Below are positions 119 to 52,619 of a DNA stretch of 64,000 nt, in pieces. This stretch comes from Cytophagales bacterium (GTDB lineage Bacteria; Bacteroidota; Bacteroidia; Cytophagales; UBA9547). The notes below the pieces were generated by a model that was not told the DNA's origin, made no database searches, and was given only the letters and a program-made list of their open reading frames with translations. The stretch's first letter is position 1; each line of letters opens with the position of its first letter. Both the position numbers and the translations under genes were made by a program. The stretch lies in assembly GCA_013297755.1 (NCBI GenBank), contig JAAFIH010000021.1:1-64000 (forward strand). The letters run 5' to 3'.

Positions 119-578
119 CATGAGTTAATAAAAAAAAATACATAGTTTATATACAAATACAGTTGAAATGATAAAAAACTTTGAAGTATGTGGTTAGTAA
201 ATAAAAAAATAGAGATGATAAATTGGATAAAACTCTACTTTCAGGGTAAAGGCATTTAAAATATTTTATTATATAATAATAAAATATTACTTTAAAAATA
301 ATATTTTAAGAAATATTTTTATCAAAAGCTCCTCCCTATGGATTTTGTGGCTTGGTAACAGAAATTGGTTTGGGTTGGGCTTAAAAAAACAGGTTTATAC
401 TAAAAAAAATCTTAAATGTGTTTGCCATGCTCTGCTTTAAACAGAAATATTTTTAAAAAACGATTCATTTTTCAAAATAAAGTCTATATATAAAAATTCT
501 CAAAACTTAAAATTATAGATTTATAATCCAAAATTCTATATAAAATTTATCTTTGTTGCAAAATGTATTTTTGCAGCC
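119..578. other. Intergenic region with a degenerate repeat-family A fragment
   Basis: This is 460 bp of very AT-rich DNA without a convincing gene. Bases 328-388 match, in reverse orientation, the internal module of the repeat at 38351-38482; the shared core reads GTAACAGAAATTGGTTTGGG. Bases 410-430 contain the reverse complement of GGCAAACACATTTAA, also found near 36660. A TATCTTTG box (548-555) just before the next gene could be its -7 promoter element. Confidence 0.5.
548..555 (+). promoter_or_regulatory. Candidate -7 promoter box for the type IIG gene
   Basis: TATCTTTG fits the Bacteroidota -7 consensus TAnnTTTG exactly and lies 24 bp upstream of the ATG at 579, giving a short leader. 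A second match, TATTTTTG at 566-573, is too close to the start to serve easily. No good TTTG is present at the -33 position, so this is only suggestive. Confidence 0.35.
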
Positions 579-38350: not shown

Positions 38351-38482
38351 TATATTGAACCGAAAAACAAATATTACAATTTTATTTTAAACCCAACCCA
38401 AACCAATTTCTGTTACGATGCCACAGAATCCAAGTGGGAGAAAAGTTATAGGAATGTAATTTTAATTTTTCGGTTTGATATA
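38351..38482. repeat. Interspersed repeat family A, copy 4 (long form)
   Basis: This ~130-bp element starts TATTGAACCGAAAAACAA and ends TTTTTCGGTTTGATATA, giving inverted termini around AACCGAAAAA. The long internal module AATTTCTGTTACGATGCCAC then AGAATCCAAGTGGGAG also occurs, diverged, at 328-388 and 27032-27092. Confidence 0.85.
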
Positions 38483-44700: not shown

Positions 44701-45297
44701 GGTAAAATTTATTTGGCTGAAAGTAACATCTTCACTTGCAGTTTCGGCTCCTAAAGTATTTTTAAATCCATCGTTTAAACTCAAAAAATATTCAGGGAAT
44801 TGAATCTTAGACACGCCATTTTCATTTTTCAAATAAGGCAATTCTATAACATTATACGCTAATGTATCTATGCTTGATGTGTTGCTAGCAGAGGCTGTTC
44901 TTGCATTTGTTGCATTATTTCTAAGGGCAAAATCAGTGATTACTGCCCTGCCTTTGGCATTGTTTTGTATTGTAAAACGAAGGCTAAAAACTTGGTCATT
45001 TTCGGTATTTTTTATTTTGTATGCCCCATTGTCTGTACCCAAAAATTGGTAAGGTATAACAGTATAAGTACGATAAAAAGCATTGTTTTGGGCTGCAGCT
45101 AGTAGTTTTTTGCTACCTGTGCTAAATACAAAATTTTTGATAAAATCTTGGTATTTGTCCTCGCTTTCAAAATATGATTTGAGCAGTTGCACATTACCTT
45201 CTTTGATATGTTGGGCAATGTCTGATTGTTGTGCAATTGTTGATTGTAATAAACAAAATGTAAGAAATAATAAAATTATTTTTTTTGATGTTTTCAT
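38719..45297 (-). CDS. Giant secreted protein with T9SS type A C-terminal sorting domain
   Basis: This 2192-residue protein has a signal peptide (residues 1-22, ending STIAQ). After an N-terminal region (~25-250), a beta-propeller-like part follows (~280-560, e.g. INGYLYVLDAGNYY and FLLLADDNGLSKIPLG). A parallel-beta/CARD-like stretch comes next, then Ig-like modules at ~1030-1610 (many with IVGLPAAPEAS-type openings and CVN/CTN cysteines). A second propeller-like part (~1640-2080) carries ENNLYILSSGGG and NGDLYVSCQNEN. Residues ~2105-2192 are the type A sorting signal (VYPNPFTGF ... IYDLLGRKL ... LSQGTYILNC). It is exported through T9SS and surface-exposed or released. It starts 3 nt after the 392-residue paralogue, so it is the last gene of a five-gene operon. 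The function is unknown. Confidence 0.92.
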   Translation of the reverse strand: MKTSKKIILLFLTFCLLQSTIAQQSDIAQHIKEGNVQLLKSYFESEDKYQDFIKNFVFSTGSKKLLAAAQNNAFYRTYTVIPYQFLGTDNGAYKIKNTENDQVFSLRFTIQNNAKGRAVITDFALRNNATNARTASASNTSSIDTLAYNVIELPYLKNENGVSKIQFPEYFLSLNDGFKNTLGAETASEDVTFSQINFTPLKLEFEWCEKILFVNVCGTKKFKVQFGTVLSGKDVPGNETEFKDSYFGTISDATAFIEPFNANYTQFSNYLLTSVVTDVIFNNLTFIREGLNPWQYGNKAGEYSFYKPIAVNYINGYLYVLDAGNYYNLPEIKVLKINHTADGEFSVSKIGIINNATYNNITFNKPNDIAGYKNLGSGSAESFLLLADDNGLSKIPLGANGMPDLALSVQKYDYFTHPTNDNVDYQTANIIRIDAYENGTTMALTSNNRIFSFFNEYDNTNSKIKLSHVTFVADTFQLSNLAFMQTEEKWYVTDFKGKLHILDKYGRYLSNSGTFGKSEYGNELYYPVAISPNPISDVQNPYRYRFIVANKWGYETGFKLFAPNLCIPKIKVFESVIDEQISVAFITSGKWNAVEFATGVTMENVMINNITVPSSVWDSQITPGVVGNLGNELNSFPNIFSFDPRTVLGMKRGWNNLKINITLFKSGLDANNDPVPNENITQNINFFWLPTNLPTATFSGASLDDYAILNKPFILTKNGNPQNQPCVIYKNIVINDKMYYAMDDLQHYFLENTTLTINKGGTLLAKPSGSSFSNFAFDVNGSVKVSNEGYVCIDSPLPNPNSKFKIPKSTNFILAENYFIGKNPMTPFSSILGNNCESACIFMSNTKLNTNFDVLVTINGTTIDLFINSPAISYHNVRKYEVFELDNQNQTILGAIFVATTTGIFDKNVNLRTLLGISFKNCKKYKVILSIGCNSDGLSAIEWFSPTEQIFDTRPLITLPAQTNYCDRPRPLTLTGFGPLPPNGFRTNSTPGTAFWSGTNITRDGRITVNANLPINTPIAYTYTYTDVLGCNNFATTTITVQTIPSAPIVPKVRVCEGNDLVLSITGNFCSSYVFKNPEEELFSTFANFYTFPNVTLDQAGVYSVTGFVRGCESLPRKVTVIVNSLPGLSIFAPVELCFKSPRYVLTAQPNGGTFSGMGVQKIGNRYFFIASVAGFGVHSITYTYTSPATKCSNATSSTITVGPMIAFGPAERVCMNEPAFVPSVASPLGGVWSKNSVALLNNLFTPSGANIGTHILMYNYTSPSGCVNTASKIITIVGLPAAPEASNNGPVCQNENVVLRASTIAGATYQWTNASNNYSISIQNPTIAGIQPTQAGVYTLRALKDGCFSAITPSSMTTVTVFALPTITISSLAGVCFNANAVDLSILPSPSTGVWTGTGVVSNNFVPNITNVGINKIIYSYTDANNCTNTKSANITVLPAPVVAILTSTPTTVCATNFVAATFVADPTGNSYPGPFVFQWARNGTNITTATGQSLKTSESGLYSLSATGLCGVAVAERNLSISTGIVQSGVISISGNLSICPNSKNTFSLPFDKDAKYHWEVNGSAILENANANICTILGLNTGIFKLEAKQMLDCITFTTTMVGNINTTSFESPTITSAVNSAICSYEAPFKIEALPIGGLWSGSGISADGIFTPQSFLPKFNTLTYTTTNGCEQKSASVVFEVNTSPSVNKEWATQFDIPFYITNYSIDFDVENNLYILSSGGGYRYYNCNLSTFAVTKIGTNGIQKWQNVYNPDNLSINCGINLGTSGSRFSGVEIVSNKNFGTWVLGKNTTNNITTNILIKYDSYTGTPLWSINLNIGDCGKSILNKGKNGDLYVSCQNENLVTKINNIGEVVFTISDINSPIIKTDIYGNLYVAGGFGATQKVVRKYSSSNNEISTTDYLSIPLIETDDLGNFYSAENIGNDLKIIKKDFNGEIKYTKILSNKHAFEIKSDKKGNIYIKSFDGSLIKLNYIGNQVWSEFNLVIGNWILDNYGNIYSTNGSFLQRINGSNGSEKWRVPVTLSVPNFPGLPNKVLFLNHFSLKTDNFSNVYTLGNYFDKDVYYAGNNFATKYSQCGSSPYNNTRMTVLDSENLIQDTLQTTKNLIEVYPNPFTGFTSVKLEIDQNESYVTLSIYDLLGRKLNFDYKQILSKGKHTIDIDSNELGLSQGTYILNCIINGKSLHLKLIKE

Positions 45298-45300
45298 AGT

Positions 45301-46479
45301 TTATTTATCCTTGAATATTGACTCTGCTTGTTTTATCGAAAATAAATCTTTTCTCGTGTTTTTTTCATTTTTTAAAGATGTACTTCTATCAATATTAAAT
45401 TTCATATAATCATACAAATACTTAGTATCCTTTGCATAAATCTTGTATATTCTGTTTAAAATTTTGGCAGGTGCATCTAAACTTTGACTTGAATCATAAT
45501 TATAGTAAGCATATCCTGTTAAAATATCGAAAATTTCTTCATGGTATAGATAAGGCGAATACTGCAACCTATCTTTAAAAAACTTTATAGTTTCTTCATC
45601 TTTAGTAATAAATTTTATCATTTCGGAAATTTTATCTTTTGGCGGTTCTAAAAAATACTTTGTTTGCATAGAAATACCTTTATATTCAAAATATTCTTTT
45701 ATTTCGTACTTATATTGCTTGTATAGTAAATAATGGGCTATATTGCTATTTTTATCTTGCAATAAATTATAGTTTTTTCTTATATTGTTTTCACAATATA
45801 TAAAAGATTGCAAGGGTTCTAGTTCTAACAATACTCGTTCGTCAGCTTCCAAATGTTTTGACAAAATGAGTGAATCGTGTTTGTTGCTATTAATATTAAA
45901 ATAAAAATCGGTAGAAAGGTAGCCATTAGGTTTTAGTTTTAAAATAAAAGTAGTTTTATAGCTACCCTCACAAAATTGATAAAAATAATTAAGAGTTTGA
46001 TATTGCACAATTGTATCTCTAGGCATAAGATTGTAATTATAAGATTTATGTTCTTTAATTAGCCATGGTTGATAACCGTGGTCAGAGCGTATCTCAAAAT
46101 GTCTAAAGTTAGGATAAAACGTGCATTTCGCACGTGCTGTATCACCATGCATAAATGTAGTTTTTAATTTTTCTAACCATATTTCCATCTCTTGTTTACA
46201 CTCTTGAGGTTGAATTTCAAATTTGCCTAGTGTGTTTTTTTTATAAAATACTGCACCAGCATAGTCAAATAAAGGATACACTTTAATAGTGTCTTTGGTT
46301 GGGTTATATATTCTGCCAATCAATTGTAACCATATAAACGAAGGATGTGATATAAAAGTCAAACTATCTTTATAATTTGTAATTTTCATTGAAGCAGAGT
46401 CAGACTGTGCATTTGTTTTTAATATAAAACAAATTGAAATAGCTGATATTAAAATTTTGATGTGGTTATTCGCAGTCAT
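45301..46479 (-). CDS. Secreted protein of unknown function, tandem paralogue 2 (392 residues)
   Basis: The signal peptide is MTANNHIKILISAISICFIL plus KTNAQ, nearly identical to the neighbouring 397-residue protein. Residues ~185-322 are almost identical to it (KPNGYLSTDFYF through EIFDILTGYA), whereas residues ~45-180 and the segment near 330-380 differ clearly. The N-terminal half looks like a beta-rich domain (IGRIYNPTKDTIKVYP ... FYKKNTLGKFEIQP); the C-terminal half is helical. I recognise no family. The upstream junction shows it arose by tandem duplication. It is 3 nt before the giant T9SS gene. Confidence 0.8.
   Translation of the reverse strand: MTANNHIKILISAISICFILKTNAQSDSASMKITNYKDSLTFISHPSFIWLQLIGRIYNPTKDTIKVYPLFDYAGAVFYKKNTLGKFEIQPQECKQEMEIWLEKLKTTFMHGDTARAKCTFYPNFRHFEIRSDHGYQPWLIKEHKSYNYNLMPRDTIVQYQTLNYFYQFCEGSYKTTFILKLKPNGYLSTDFYFNINSNKHDSLILSKHLEADERVLLELEPLQSFIYCENNIRKNYNLLQDKNSNIAHYLLYKQYKYEIKEYFEYKGISMQTKYFLEPPKDKISEMIKFITKDEETIKFFKDRLQYSPYLYHEEIFDILTGYAYYNYDSSQSLDAPAKILNRIYKIYAKDTKYLYDYMKFNIDRSTSLKNEKNTRKDLFSIKQAESIFKDK
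45516..45930 (-). repeat. Near-identical segment shared with the upstream paralogue (copy 2)
   Basis: About 400 bp here match 46808-47222 with only around a dozen differences, while the flanking coding sequence is much more diverged. This suggests gene conversion or selection against change in the helical C-terminal half. Confidence 0.85.
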
Positions 46480-46586
46480 TTCCTCAGATAGATAAACGGT
46501 TGATTAATACATTTCTGTGCCCTTCACAGAATTCAAGTTTTGATACTTGTAAGTTATAAAATTATTTTTTTTGATGTTTTCATAGT
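46480..46586. pseudogene. Tandem-duplication junction with remnants of two genes
   Basis: Bases 46480-46534 copy the 3' end of the metallopeptidase gene (compare 47781-47835; ends at GAATTC). On the minus strand the copy's reading frame is broken by a TGA where the original has AGA. Bases ~46556-46586 copy the 5' end of the giant T9SS gene (TTTGATGTTTTCATAGTTTA, as at 45288-45307). Between them lie ~20 novel bases. The unit duplicated was therefore protease tail + 390-residue gene + giant-gene head. Confidence 0.85.
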
Positions 46587-47780
46587 TTATTTATCCTTGA
46601 ATATTGACTCTGCTTGTTCTATCGAAAATAAGTCTTCTCTCTTATTTTTCCCTTTTATTAAAGAAGTACTTTCTTCAATTTTAAATTTCATATAATCTAG
46701 CAAATACTTAGTATCTTTGGCATAAATGTTGTATATTCTGTTTAAAATCTTGGCAGTAGTTTCCAAATTATAAACGTGTTCATCGTTATAGTGAGCATAG
46801 CCTGTTAAAATATCAAAAATTTCTTCATGGTATAGATAAGGCGAATACTGCAACCTATCTTTAAAAAACTTTATGGTTTCTTCATCTTTAGTAATAAATT
46901 TTATCATTTCGGAAATTTTTCCTTTTGGTGGTTCTAAAAAATACTTTGTTTGCATAGAAATACCTTTATATTCAAAATATTCTTTTATTTCGTACTTATA
47001 TTGCTTGTATAGTAAATAATGAGCAATATTGTTATTTTTATCTTGCAATAAATTATAGTTTTTTCTTATGTTGTTTTCACAATATATAAAAGATTGCAAA
47101 GGTTCTAGTTCTAACAATACTCTTTCGTCAGCTTCCAAATGTTTTGACAAAATGAGTGAATCGTGTTTGTTGCTCTTAATATTAAAATAAAAATCGGTAG
47201 AAAGGTAGCCATTAGGTTTTAGTTTTAGGATAATGGTTTGTTTGTATTTGCCAGGAATTTTATATCCATAGAACTCAAGATAAAACCAGTATCTATAAAT
47301 TTGTTTTGGTGTAACATTAAACTCATAAGATTTATATTCCATATCTTTTAATTTAGTGCTTTTTTTTGGGTAATAACCATATCTTTTTTCTGATGGATAA
47401 TCTGATGCAAAAGCACATTCTGCACGTGCAGTATCGCCATGCATAATGGTAGTTTTTAATTTTTCTAGCCATATTTCCATTTCTTGTTTGCATTCTGGTG
47501 GTTGTATTTCAAAATTACCTAAACTATTCTTTTTAAAATAAATAAAACCAGCATCCCCATCTCTAACTGGGTAAACTTTGAGTGTGTCGTTGGTTGGGTT
47601 GTATATTTTAGCACGTAACCATATTTTTTTAAAGTTATAATCTGGAAAATAAATAAAATTCAAACTATCTCTATAATTTGTAATTTTCATTGATATTGAG
47701 TCAGGCTGTGCATTTGTTTTTAATATAAAACAAAGTGAAATAGCTGATATTAAAATTTTGATGTGGTTATTCGCAGTCAT
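46587..47780 (-). CDS. Secreted protein of unknown function, tandem paralogue 1 (397 residues)
   Basis: This 397-residue protein has the same signal peptide as its paralogue (ending KTNAQ). The beta-rich N-terminal half (IWLRAKIYNPTNDTLKVYP) has diverged in its middle, and the helical C-terminal half is nearly identical. The ATG overlaps the last 14 nt of the protease gene (ATGACTGCGAATAA), implying translational coupling. Codon use and AT content match the surroundings. No family was recognised. Its tight coupling to a metallopeptidase lipoprotein suggests partners, substrate or inhibitor, but this is inference. Confidence 0.8.
   Translation of the reverse strand: MTANNHIKILISAISLCFILKTNAQPDSISMKITNYRDSLNFIYFPDYNFKKIWLRAKIYNPTNDTLKVYPVRDGDAGFIYFKKNSLGNFEIQPPECKQEMEIWLEKLKTTIMHGDTARAECAFASDYPSEKRYGYYPKKSTKLKDMEYKSYEFNVTPKQIYRYWFYLEFYGYKIPGKYKQTIILKLKPNGYLSTDFYFNIKSNKHDSLILSKHLEADERVLLELEPLQSFIYCENNIRKNYNLLQDKNNNIAHYLLYKQYKYEIKEYFEYKGISMQTKYFLEPPKGKISEMIKFITKDEETIKFFKDRLQYSPYLYHEEIFDILTGYAHYNDEHVYNLETTAKILNRIYNIYAKDTKYLLDYMKFKIEESTSLIKGKNKREDLFSIEQAESIFKDK
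46808..47222 (-). repeat. Near-identical segment shared with the downstream paralogue (copy 1)
   Basis: This is the partner of 45516-45930, encoding the shared helical C-terminal half of the two paralogues. Confidence 0.85.
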
Positions 47781-49770
47781 TTCCTCTGATAGATAAACGG
47801 TTGATTAATACATTTCTATGTCCTTCACAGAATTCTCTATTTTCGTATTGTTTGCTATAAAATTCTTCACTTGTAAGGTTAGATGTTGTGCTCGACCAAT
47901 ACTTGAACGCACACCAGTTGCTTCCATAGCCATTGCACCAATAATTATGCGATTCCAGATTATCGTCTGTATTGCATGGAAATATAGTGCTGCTACCATT
48001 TTCCATTGTTTTCATGTCCCAACAATGCCCAAGTTCGTGTATGGCATTAAGTGCTTGTCTTTTCTTAATTTCAACTGCATCTGTATTTTGCTTAGCTATA
48101 TTATTACTAAATACAATTGCAATTGGTGCATATACCTCATCAGGTGTGTTTATTTCAGAACTTCCTTTTAAAGTAATGCCATATTGGCAGCCATCTGTGG
48201 TACAAGTATTGGTAAAATAAGTATTAATTCTTGTAGTTAGTTCATTGTTAGGTTTGCCTTTAATAAAAGGATTATTTTGATAGTCGTACACTATAAATCC
48301 TTTGGCATTAAGCAAATAAGCTTTGTTTTCGAGATATAATTGTTTCTTTTCAGAAGTTAAAAACCAACGTGTAGAATTTCTAGTTGTATTTGTAAGAATT
48401 AAAGACAATTTATTTTGCTCAGTAGCCAACATCTTATAATACCAATCATACAAAGCCGCTACCACCATTTCTTTTGTAATTACTTTATCTTTAAAAGTAT
48501 TCAAATTAAATTTATCATCTAATAATTGAGCATCCAAAATAATATTACCATCTGCATCAATAAAATCTGTGCTTAATTTTTTCTGGGTCAAATTGGGATA
48601 GATTTGAGCATCTGTAGTTTTGTTATTATTGTCATCCCAAAAGGCTTTTTTCAAAATATCTGTAAAAGATGAATTGCCAATACTAAAATTACCAAAATTA
48701 TAACTATCATTACCATACAAAGATACAATATTAAAATATCTTTCCGAAAATGAAGTTATTGTAGAATTGTATGTATTAAACAACTGATTATTAAGTACTT
48801 GTATAGTATTATCACCAGTCTTAATAATATTAAAACTAGATAAATTTGATGGTAAATTAACACCAGTATAAGTTGCTAGGGCAAAAGTATGTTCACCTGG
48901 TTCTCTTAAAATTAAAGTAACTACACTTTCTAAATATGTTGGTTTTTGGTTATAATACTTAATTCTATTTCTATTAAGGCTTTTTCTAACTATTTTTACT
49001 CCATCCATATATTGATTATTTTTTATTAATATTAACGCATATTGAGTAGACTCTGAAAACGATGAAATATCGCATCTAACGTACATAGGCCTAGTATTCG
49101 TAAGACTGGAAATAAAATATTTATTTGAATTTGTACATATTTCTTCTACTTTTGTTTCTGTTTCTGTTCTGACATTTGTATAATTAAGACAACCAATATT
49201 ACTATAAAAGGGAAACTCATCTGGTGCTTCTTCTATAGGTCCACTTTTTGCAAAACTTTCGCAAGATACATCTGATCCATCAATGAATTTATTTCTTAAA
49301 TTGGCATAGTCGTTATCTATTTCTATGGCATATTGGGGCAATACACCAAAACTTCCTCCAGGATTACTTTTTTTTCGTAATTCTAATTCTCTACCTCTTC
49401 CACCTTTAAGTGGTGTTCCATACCTATCAGCATAATAATAACATTTATCATTCAGCAAATTAAAATCACACTGTGATTCCTTATAACATGCATCCCAAAC
49501 ATAGTAAGGTATACCATTGTTAAGATTAGGATGTGATTCAGATATTATTTTATAACAAATATGTACATTTGCTAACTTACATTTTACGGCTTTTTCAGCA
49601 TCATCACAAACTTTACATAAACATGGAAAAGGATACGTATCATCATATGCTGTAGTTGCCCGGGATCCTATTGTGATTACACATGATGATTTTTTTGAGC
49701 TAGTACACCCACCCCAAAGGACTATCCCTACAATCCAAAAAACGAATTTTACTAAATACTTTATTTTCAT
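47767..49770 (-). CDS. Lipoprotein zinc metallopeptidase (HELGH), 667 residues
   Basis: The signal peptide ends in a lipobox LWGGC (Cys22 followed by TSS), so it is anchored to a membrane. A cysteine-rich N-terminal part follows (FPCLCKVCDDAEKAVKCKLA). Then comes a region with a glycine-poor beta pattern (CDISSFSESTQYALILIKNNQ, resembling a carbohydrate/prepeptidase beta domain). The catalytic motif is AIHELGHCWDM with H578, E579 and H582; the third zinc ligand is not obvious. C-terminal cysteines (SHNYWCNGYGSNWCAF, REFCEGHRN) may form disulfides. I do not recognise a named family; gluzincin or metzincin-like is possible. It sits 19 bp after the barrel gene and overlaps the 397-residue gene by 14 bp. 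Confidence 0.8.
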   Translation of the reverse strand: MKIKYLVKFVFWIVGIVLWGGCTSSKKSSCVITIGSRATTAYDDTYPFPCLCKVCDDAEKAVKCKLANVHICYKIISESHPNLNNGIPYYVWDACYKESQCDFNLLNDKCYYYADRYGTPLKGGRGRELELRKKSNPGGSFGVLPQYAIEIDNDYANLRNKFIDGSDVSCESFAKSGPIEEAPDEFPFYSNIGCLNYTNVRTETETKVEEICTNSNKYFISSLTNTRPMYVRCDISSFSESTQYALILIKNNQYMDGVKIVRKSLNRNRIKYYNQKPTYLESVVTLILREPGEHTFALATYTGVNLPSNLSSFNIIKTGDNTIQVLNNQLFNTYNSTITSFSERYFNIVSLYGNDSYNFGNFSIGNSSFTDILKKAFWDDNNNKTTDAQIYPNLTQKKLSTDFIDADGNIILDAQLLDDKFNLNTFKDKVITKEMVVAALYDWYYKMLATEQNKLSLILTNTTRNSTRWFLTSEKKQLYLENKAYLLNAKGFIVYDYQNNPFIKGKPNNELTTRINTYFTNTCTTDGCQYGITLKGSSEINTPDEVYAPIAIVFSNNIAKQNTDAVEIKKRQALNAIHELGHCWDMKTMENGSSTIFPCNTDDNLESHNYWCNGYGSNWCAFKYWSSTTSNLTSEEFYSKQYENREFCEGHRNVLINRLSIRGNDCE

Positions 49771-51410: not shown

Positions 51411-52619
51411 TTATTCTTTACTAATTTTAAGTGCATACTCTTTTATTCTAGGGTCGTAAAGCCATATTTTACCATTGGCATAATATCCCCTTTCTTTGTA
51501 ATATTTAATAGAATGTTCTAACTCAAATGCAAGTTCAGGAATTAACTTGCGAAGCCTCAAAGGCAATACTTTAAAATACTTTAATATTTGTAACCCTATT
51601 TTTACTTGCATTTCATAGTCGTTATCATAAACCAATTGTGCGCTTAAAATATCTCTATAAAACTCTAACAAGTGACTTGGTTTTATAATAGTAGATATTA
51701 TAGTGGGAAATTGTTTATCTGAAAAGACCAGTTTTTGTGTCATTTTTTTGAAACTCAGTGTATCTTTTTTAGTTTTCAACTTTTGCTCCATTATATTTTC
51801 ATTAAAAGTAGTAAGATGAAAATCAACGTAAAATTTATAAATAGGTGTTTTTGCATATTTTTTCTTAAATTTCATGAAGGTATCATTATAAAAATACTGA
51901 TATTCAAAATAATTATATTGATAGTACTTATTTTTATCAGAATAGTTTCTCGTCATTTTTGATACTTTTTGGCAAGAATCAAGGAATTTTTTAAACATTT
52001 CTTTTCTCTTTTCGTCATAATTACTTTCAAGATTAGTGATGTAAAACTCCTTTTCTGCTTCTGTATATGAATTTTCGCCATAAGGTTTTCTGTAAATTAC
52101 TTTTGCTTTTATTACTGTATCGCTCAAATTGGCTAAACTAGGTTCGTTTTCAAATCTATAATTAGTAGACCAATCCCAAGGTCTTTCTAATTTATTTTTG
52201 CCTGGTTTTAGTTTATATCTCTCTTTGTATCTTTTTGAGGAAAAAATAGGCAAACTTCTAATATCCCCCAGATAACTTATACTTAAATTTGCAGCTTTTA
52301 ATTTTAACTCTTCTTTAAGATCAATTTTTAATTTTGCAATTTTGCAATAATCAAACATGATTTCAATACCTGTAGCTGCACCCAAAGTTACCCAAGCAGA
52401 ATCTGATGTATTAAAATATTTTAAAATATATCCAGTATTATGATAGCTCACTACTGTATCCTTAGAATGATTATATACATAAGGAAAAGGGTGGCCTCTT
52501 TTTATATCTACTGTATCATCATCAAAACTATTAAATTTAAAAGACACCACAGAAGTGTCTAAATTTTGTGAATTACTACAAACTATACTTATAGCAATTA
52601 AAAATAGTGTTTTTTTCAT
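51411..52619 (-). CDS. Secreted protein of unknown function (402 residues), likely distant relative of the tandem paralogues
   Basis: This protein has a signal peptide MKKTLFLIAISIVCSNSQ, a beta-rich N-terminal half (VYNHSKDTVVSYHNTGYILKYF ... WVTLG) and a long helical C-terminal half. The layout matches the 392/397-residue pair: similar length, export signal, and IYNPTKDTIKVYP versus VYNHSKDTVVSYH at the same place. Identity is low. It is directly downstream (4 bp) of a short remnant that looks like the C-terminus of a metallopeptidase, repeating the protease-partner gene order. No family was recognised. Confidence 0.78.
   Translation of the reverse strand: MKKTLFLIAISIVCSNSQNLDTSVVSFKFNSFDDDTVDIKRGHPFPYVYNHSKDTVVSYHNTGYILKYFNTSDSAWVTLGAATGIEIMFDYCKIAKLKIDLKEELKLKAANLSISYLGDIRSLPIFSSKRYKERYKLKPGKNKLERPWDWSTNYRFENEPSLANLSDTVIKAKVIYRKPYGENSYTEAEKEFYITNLESNYDEKRKEMFKKFLDSCQKVSKMTRNYSDKNKYYQYNYFEYQYFYNDTFMKFKKKYAKTPIYKFYVDFHLTTFNENIMEQKLKTKKDTLSFKKMTQKLVFSDKQFPTIISTIIKPSHLLEFYRDILSAQLVYDNDYEMQVKIGLQILKYFKVLPLRLRKLIPELAFELEHSIKYYKERGYYANGKIWLYDPRIKEYALKISKE

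Follow-up and report, generated by a model that had tools for sequence, protein, structure and literature searches.

A tandem duplication of a secreted-protein gene with legible borders and uneven divergence between its copies in a Cytophagales bacterium

Contig JAAFIH010000021.1 of a Cytophagales bacterium carries two adjacent genes for secreted proteins, here called copy A (397 residues) and copy B (392 residues), within the 64,000-nucleotide stretch that we analysed (the window; all coordinates are window positions, and the genes of the locus lie on the minus strand). The two genes are a tandem duplication, both borders of which are preserved in the 107 base pairs (bp) between them. A genome of the same genus has a single gene at this locus, and the copies differ from each other as a mosaic of nearly identical and highly diverged tracts. 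On balance, we consider it probable that the duplication is old and was later partly homogenised by gene conversion. In the direction of transcription, the order is barrel-like gene, putative protease, copy A, junction, copy B and a giant cargo protein of the type IX secretion system (T9SS) (Table 1).

The junction between the copies

Copies A and B lie head to tail in the same orientation and are identical at 298 of 405 positions (BLASTP). A sequence-only reading of the window had taken their open reading frames (ORFs) for tandem copies, separated by a 107-bp junction made of 55 bp of the 3' end of the protease gene with an in-frame TGA, about 30 bp of the 5' end of the giant gene, and some 20 unmatched bases. 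Both ORFs and both parental fragments were found. Junction bases 46480-46534 match the protease end at 47781-47835 in 52 of 55 positions, with the TGA in frame, and bases 46556-46586 match the start of the giant gene at 45270-45300 in all 31. Local alignment scores were 103 on the protease side and 64 on the giant side, against maxima of 39 and 33, respectively, among 2000 random sequence pairs from a first-order Markov model. The fragments thus align above background, and the recombination borders of the unit are readable on both sides, as had been claimed. Independently, when the genome was searched with the protease protein, its residues 635-667 were placed at 46469-46567 with 73% identity; the match contains one TGA and one TAA. 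The protease stop overlaps copy A's start by 14 bases, and for this reason copy B, too, opens with 14 bases of protease 3' end (46466-46479), which it shares with the protease remnant. On the other side, the unit captured the first 28 coding bases of the giant gene.

The 20 or so supposedly unmatched bases are better read as diverged protease codons, which would reach up to an 8-bp microhomology, ATAAAATT (sense AATTTTAT). Compared without gaps, bases 46535-46554 agree with the protease at 8 of 20 positions, a match that is weak by itself. They run gap-free into TATAAAATT (46555-46563); the protease carries this word at an equal distance (47856-47864). Furthermore, no stop interrupts the protease frame over this stretch, which has the same length in the remnant (FYNLQVSKLEFCEGH), the window protease (FYSKQYENREFCEGH) and the protease of the same-genus genome G001 (FRNKRSNSLEFCEGH); at its eight variable residues the remnant shares two with the window protease and two with that of G001. 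The giant-gene fragment, too, ends on its inner side in ATAAAATT. Because the stretch leads to this word ungapped, at equal length and in an open frame, we place the crossover, provisionally, at the microhomology; a short word shared by both parents stands there, provided that 46535-46554 are diverged protease sequence. ATAAAATT occurs nine times in the 13,893 positions of the locus, and the chance of meeting it within three positions on either side of the right register is about 0.001-0.005. Measured from word to word, the unit is 1301 bp long for A and 1286 bp for B, a difference of 15 bases that reflects the five codons by which the copies differ.

The sequence-only reading had also pointed to related genomes as the place to look for a single-copy locus, and G001 has one. 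A homologue of 366 residues (BLASTP E value 1e-10 to A and 1e-8 to B) stands there in a row with the order and orientation of the window: giant gene (56% identical), homologue, protease, a gene of 229 residues and an XRE-type regulator (80%). The 229-residue gene takes the place of the 285-residue barrel-like gene, to which it has no significant match (E 0.30). A single-sequence search of 10 genomes of the family found the gene in its own genome only; with a profile of A and B, it was found in two genomes among 390 taken from the order, its own and G001. The single-copy state of G001 may be ancestral, or a second copy may have been lost there; both are possible.

Uneven divergence between A and B

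The copies were compared from microhomology to microhomology over ungapped columns only, and differ at 217 of 1271. Six stretches of low divergence (5/138, 2/41, 6/68, 14/442, 8/82 and 1/76 differences, or 1-10%; 36/847 in total) alternate with six of high divergence (13/30, 4/4, 51/148, 85/170, 16/29 and 12/43; 181/424 in total). A two-state model gained 96.5 log units over a one-state model, which was reached in none of 200 permutations scored at the fitted parameters. Synonymous changes, counted over conserved-residue degenerate codons, are clustered as well: 30 of 69 such codons were changed in columns 43-193, compared with 18 of 220 in the other columns (reached in 0 of 300 permutations). 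By columns, NG86 synonymous divergence (dS) was 0.10 (1-35), 1.7 (36-100), 0.77 (101-122), 1.1 (123-190), 0.17 (191-340), 0.58 (341-355) and 0.32 (356-405), the higher values being near saturation and imprecise. The synonymous level of the island is about that seen between species (575/1205 for the giant gene, 139/311 for pyrC). Targets of diversity-generating retroelements carry adenine-specific substitutions, with a reverse transcriptase and template close by; across columns 36-190 all twelve kinds of base change occur, and 91 of the 141 changes involve the base A, as counted between two variable copies without a template.

Synonymous divergence varies about fivefold along the pair, so its parts coalesced at different times; drift acting independently on the products of one duplication does not yield parts of differing age. 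The same unevenness undoes the suggestion of the earlier reading that the event could be dated from later divergence. Converted duplicates look younger than their true age, according to the available text of PMC3924837, and this is the weak point of any claim about dating. Comparison with G001 separates the parts of the pair further. At residues 182-331, A and B are identical at 145 of 150 positions but either copy shares only 35 of 142 with G001, and constraint therefore fails to explain the homogenised tract. At residues 118-181 the counts are 20/56 (A-B), 15/49 (A-G001) and 11/49 (B-G001); since this segment is no more divergent from G001 than 182-331, local hypermutation is not indicated. 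At the two ends, 37/42 are identical between copies at residues 1-42 (9/42 for A and 8/42 for B against G001) and 44/55 at residues 343-397 (13/49 and 12/49). These counts were stable to within a few positions across three alignment settings. Taken together, a tract closer between copies than between species lies beside tracts that are not, and synonymous divergence between the copies is uneven, both of which are expected of duplicates under gene conversion.

A favoured history and its alternatives

In the history that we favour, an operon-like row of barrel-like protein, putative protease, secreted protein and giant T9SS cargo would have gained a tandem duplication of ~1.3 kb by illegitimate recombination at ATAAAATT, a word that the protease gene contains in its last codons and the giant gene in its first. 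The overlap between protease end and gene start would have come along with the unit, so that each copy, B included, would have kept its start context. Gene conversion between the adjacent copies may then have made the ends and the C-terminal half alike, in repeated rounds. Islands missed by conversion, or shielded by selection, would persist in the N-terminal part (about residues 43-181) and, towards the C terminus, in two short patches; the protease remnant's non-coding edge would likewise have escaped. The edges of the junction are indeed unlike, the non-coding protease edge being diverged (8/20) and the giant edge not (31/31). As the protease remnant is non-coding, divergence at 46535-46554 would call for age, not diversifying selection. 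Chance may account for the persistence of the islands; selection keeping them apart is also possible and fits the theory in the available text of PMC3924837 and PMC3728101. A further step, which we regard as doubtful, is that A and B have long been kept functionally different, perhaps since near the split from G001, by selection on a recognition-like N-terminal part, with the C-terminal part kept common by conversion. If so, the pair would provide two specificities with one shared docking half.

Several observations weigh against the favoured history. Conversion is suggested by one genome per species and not by an event seen directly, and one outgroup only carries the gene. Residues 43-117, which belong to the synonymous island, are intermediate (A-B 50/70, A-G001 18/64, B-G001 20/65), so that the proteins of the two copies differ far less there than those of the two species. 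At residues 332-342 the copies share 2 of 11 positions, with merely two comparable with G001, and alignment columns 123-190 are rich in gaps. Identity between A and G001 is 21-31% in segments with at least 42 compared positions, so low that saturation may mask rate differences between segments. Several ends of conversion tracts would be needed, given that one island consists of four successive changes and two others are very short (16/29 and 12/43). At the proposed crossover, the 3' 200 bp of the protease and the 5' 100 bp of the giant gene share a second 8-mer, which makes ATAAAATT notable for its register, not its length.

The main rival, which we see as possible but considerably less probable, is a young duplication (about 4% divergence) whose islands were imported later from foreign alleles, or a pair that arose between two divergent alleles. 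The low level of the similar stretches would suit it, a neighbouring gene of 402 residues (51411-52619) shows signs of lateral exchange with another genome, and if the duplication were about as old as the species split, residues 43-117 would be expected to differ more between the copies than they do. However, a sufficiently diverged donor would be expected to differ in the C-terminal half too, where A and G001 share 35/142, leaving little homology for exchange; several separate imports would probably be required, one of them in the protease end; and of the two junction edges, only the non-coding protease one is diverged. Nor has a donor come to light: a whole-protein search of the 70-contig genome (E 0.001) found only A and B, although short donors would escape it. 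When the genus was searched at the DNA level with 46850-47250, copy B came up, and all other matches were of 25-33 bases. Template switching was rejected as the origin of the short patches: the words that these share with the rest of the 76.9-kb contig are 11-12 bases at the longest, against medians of 13 and 12 for random stretches. It is much less probable still that diversifying selection or local hypermutation produced the islands in a single duplication of uniform age. As this would predict, amino-acid changes cluster in the islands (nonsynonymous divergence, dN, of 0.77 in columns 123-190 against 0.015 in 191-340), but the synonymous changes are concentrated too, which largely refutes it; moreover, the well-aligned block 101-122 has a dN of 0.019 with a dS of 0.77, and the islands are no more divergent from G001 than the rest, within the limits that saturation sets to this test. 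A separate matter, compatible with any of these histories, is whether 46535-46554 are true non-homologous filler inserted as the junction formed. Identity to the protease at just 8 of 20 bases speaks for filler, as does the fact that TGTAAG can instead be aligned, with a gap, to the giant gene. We nevertheless think filler rather unlikely, as the shared 8-mer is reached without any gap and the stretch keeps both frame and length in the remnant and the two proteases.

Comparable joints and mosaics have been described. The tandem duplications in the available part of a Salmonella survey (PMC3411829) also have a short direct repeat at the novel joint and duplicated parts in the same orientation. 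In that part of the survey the verification cut-off was 11 bp or more and candidates of 7 and 9 bp failed verification, whereas the word here has 8 bp; its joints came from a growing culture, and ours is read in an assembled genome. The mosaic of low and very high divergence resembles gene-converted duplicates with divergence peaks, as presented in the accessible portions of a review (PMC3924837) and of a study of the copepod GOT1 pair (PMC3728101), and is itself of a known kind; those examples are eukaryotic and cover more genes or populations, in contrast to one bacterial genome and one outgroup here. PE_PGRS17/18 of tubercle bacilli are likewise adjacent bacterial paralogues with inferred gene conversion, as far as the available text of PMC1762029 goes; there exchange was tracked across strains, whereas here it is deduced from divergence, and the families are likened without sequence comparison. 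The present locus offers a clear bacterial case in which joint, single-copy relative and later uneven divergence are all legible. It warns against dating duplicates by mean divergence, given that one edge of the same joint looks old and the other new, and its divergent islands provide a short list of residues for functional testing.

Locus, protein families and neighbourhood

Table 1. Features of the duplicated locus, in window coordinates
Feature	Position	Strand	Basis or remark
Outer-membrane beta-barrel-like gene, 285 residues	49790..50647	-	OMP_b-brl, E 7.8e-05, 23.3 bits
Putative HExxH (HELGH) metalloprotease lipoprotein, 667 residues	47767..49770	-	ORF; source of the protease remnant in the junction
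Microhomology ATAAAATT, protease border of the unit	47857..47864	-	Alignment
Copy A, secreted protein, 397 residues	46587..47780	-	ORF; start overlaps protease stop
Duplication junction between the copies, 107 bp	46480..46586	-	Parentage by alignment
Giant-gene 5'-end remnant	46556..46586	-	31/31 identical
Putative crossover, 8-bp microhomology ATAAAATT common to both junction parents	46556..46563	-	Alignment
Protease 3'-end remnant, 33 codons including stop	46466..46564	-	In-frame TGA 46484-46486
Copy B, secreted protein, 392 residues	45301..46479	-	ORF
Microhomology ATAAAATT, giant-gene border of the unit	45270..45277	-	Alignment
Giant T9SS type A cargo protein, 2192 residues	38719..45297	-	Por_Secre_tail 3.4e-08 (Pfam), TIGR04183 5.4e-09 (NCBIfam)

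Both copies have a putative N-terminal signal peptide, as judged by eye. No family was found for A and B in Pfam, NCBIfam or PADLOC (PHROGs was not among the libraries searched); with PADLOC, 0 of 7 proteins matched. Neither Por_Secre_tail nor another T9SS C-terminal sorting domain of Pfam or NCBIfam was detected in A or B, whereas the giant neighbour has one. There was no convincing match to a solved structure: when the PDB was searched with a profile built from A, B and their G001 homologue, one antibody chain (E 0.36) was returned, which we took as chance. Predicting a structure from the two window proteins gave nothing usable (mean pLDDT 31.9), and a tblastn search of plasmid records gave no match. 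From gene order, A and B may be periplasmic or surface partners of the giant T9SS cargo, working beyond the inner membrane. The 402-residue gene mentioned above is similar in plan and was considered as a third paralogue, and was rejected (BLASTP E 1.5, hhalign probability 2.5). Small secreted genes that adjoin giant genes in genome G008 had no detectable match to A or B.

The HELGH motif, metalloprotease class and lipoprotein signal of the putative protease were assigned by eye, and we take them as presumptive; the protein had no match in Pfam, NCBIfam or, by sequence, the PDB. It evolves fast, with 237 of 642 residues common with G001 against 98 of 122 for the nearby regulator. The OMP_b-brl match of the barrel-like gene lies under the Pfam cut-off of 28.7 bits. 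Just past the stop of copy A, where the start of the giant gene would stand, a mini-ORF of nine codons (MKTSKKIIL, then TAA; 46554-46583, minus strand) runs from the giant gene's former ATG.

In the neighbourhood, the 402-residue gene has 83% DNA identity over 1055 bp to a relative in genome G002 (L029, G002:C133). Synonymous differences between the two number 40/252, against 155/339 for pyrC of the same genomes, which suggests lateral exchange. The G002 copy lies near a contig end; it lacks a matching 5' part and has stops in that region. A dispersed repeat of ~39 bp, 85-90% alike, is found at window positions 38402-38440, at 331-369 (minus strand) and at L029:1-39; the first of these sits between the pyrC and giant ORFs. 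In G008, an ORF of 1516 residues (L010:1046-5596, plus strand), a candidate Cas9 by its appearance, lies upstream of a row in which the protease and giant genes have relatives.

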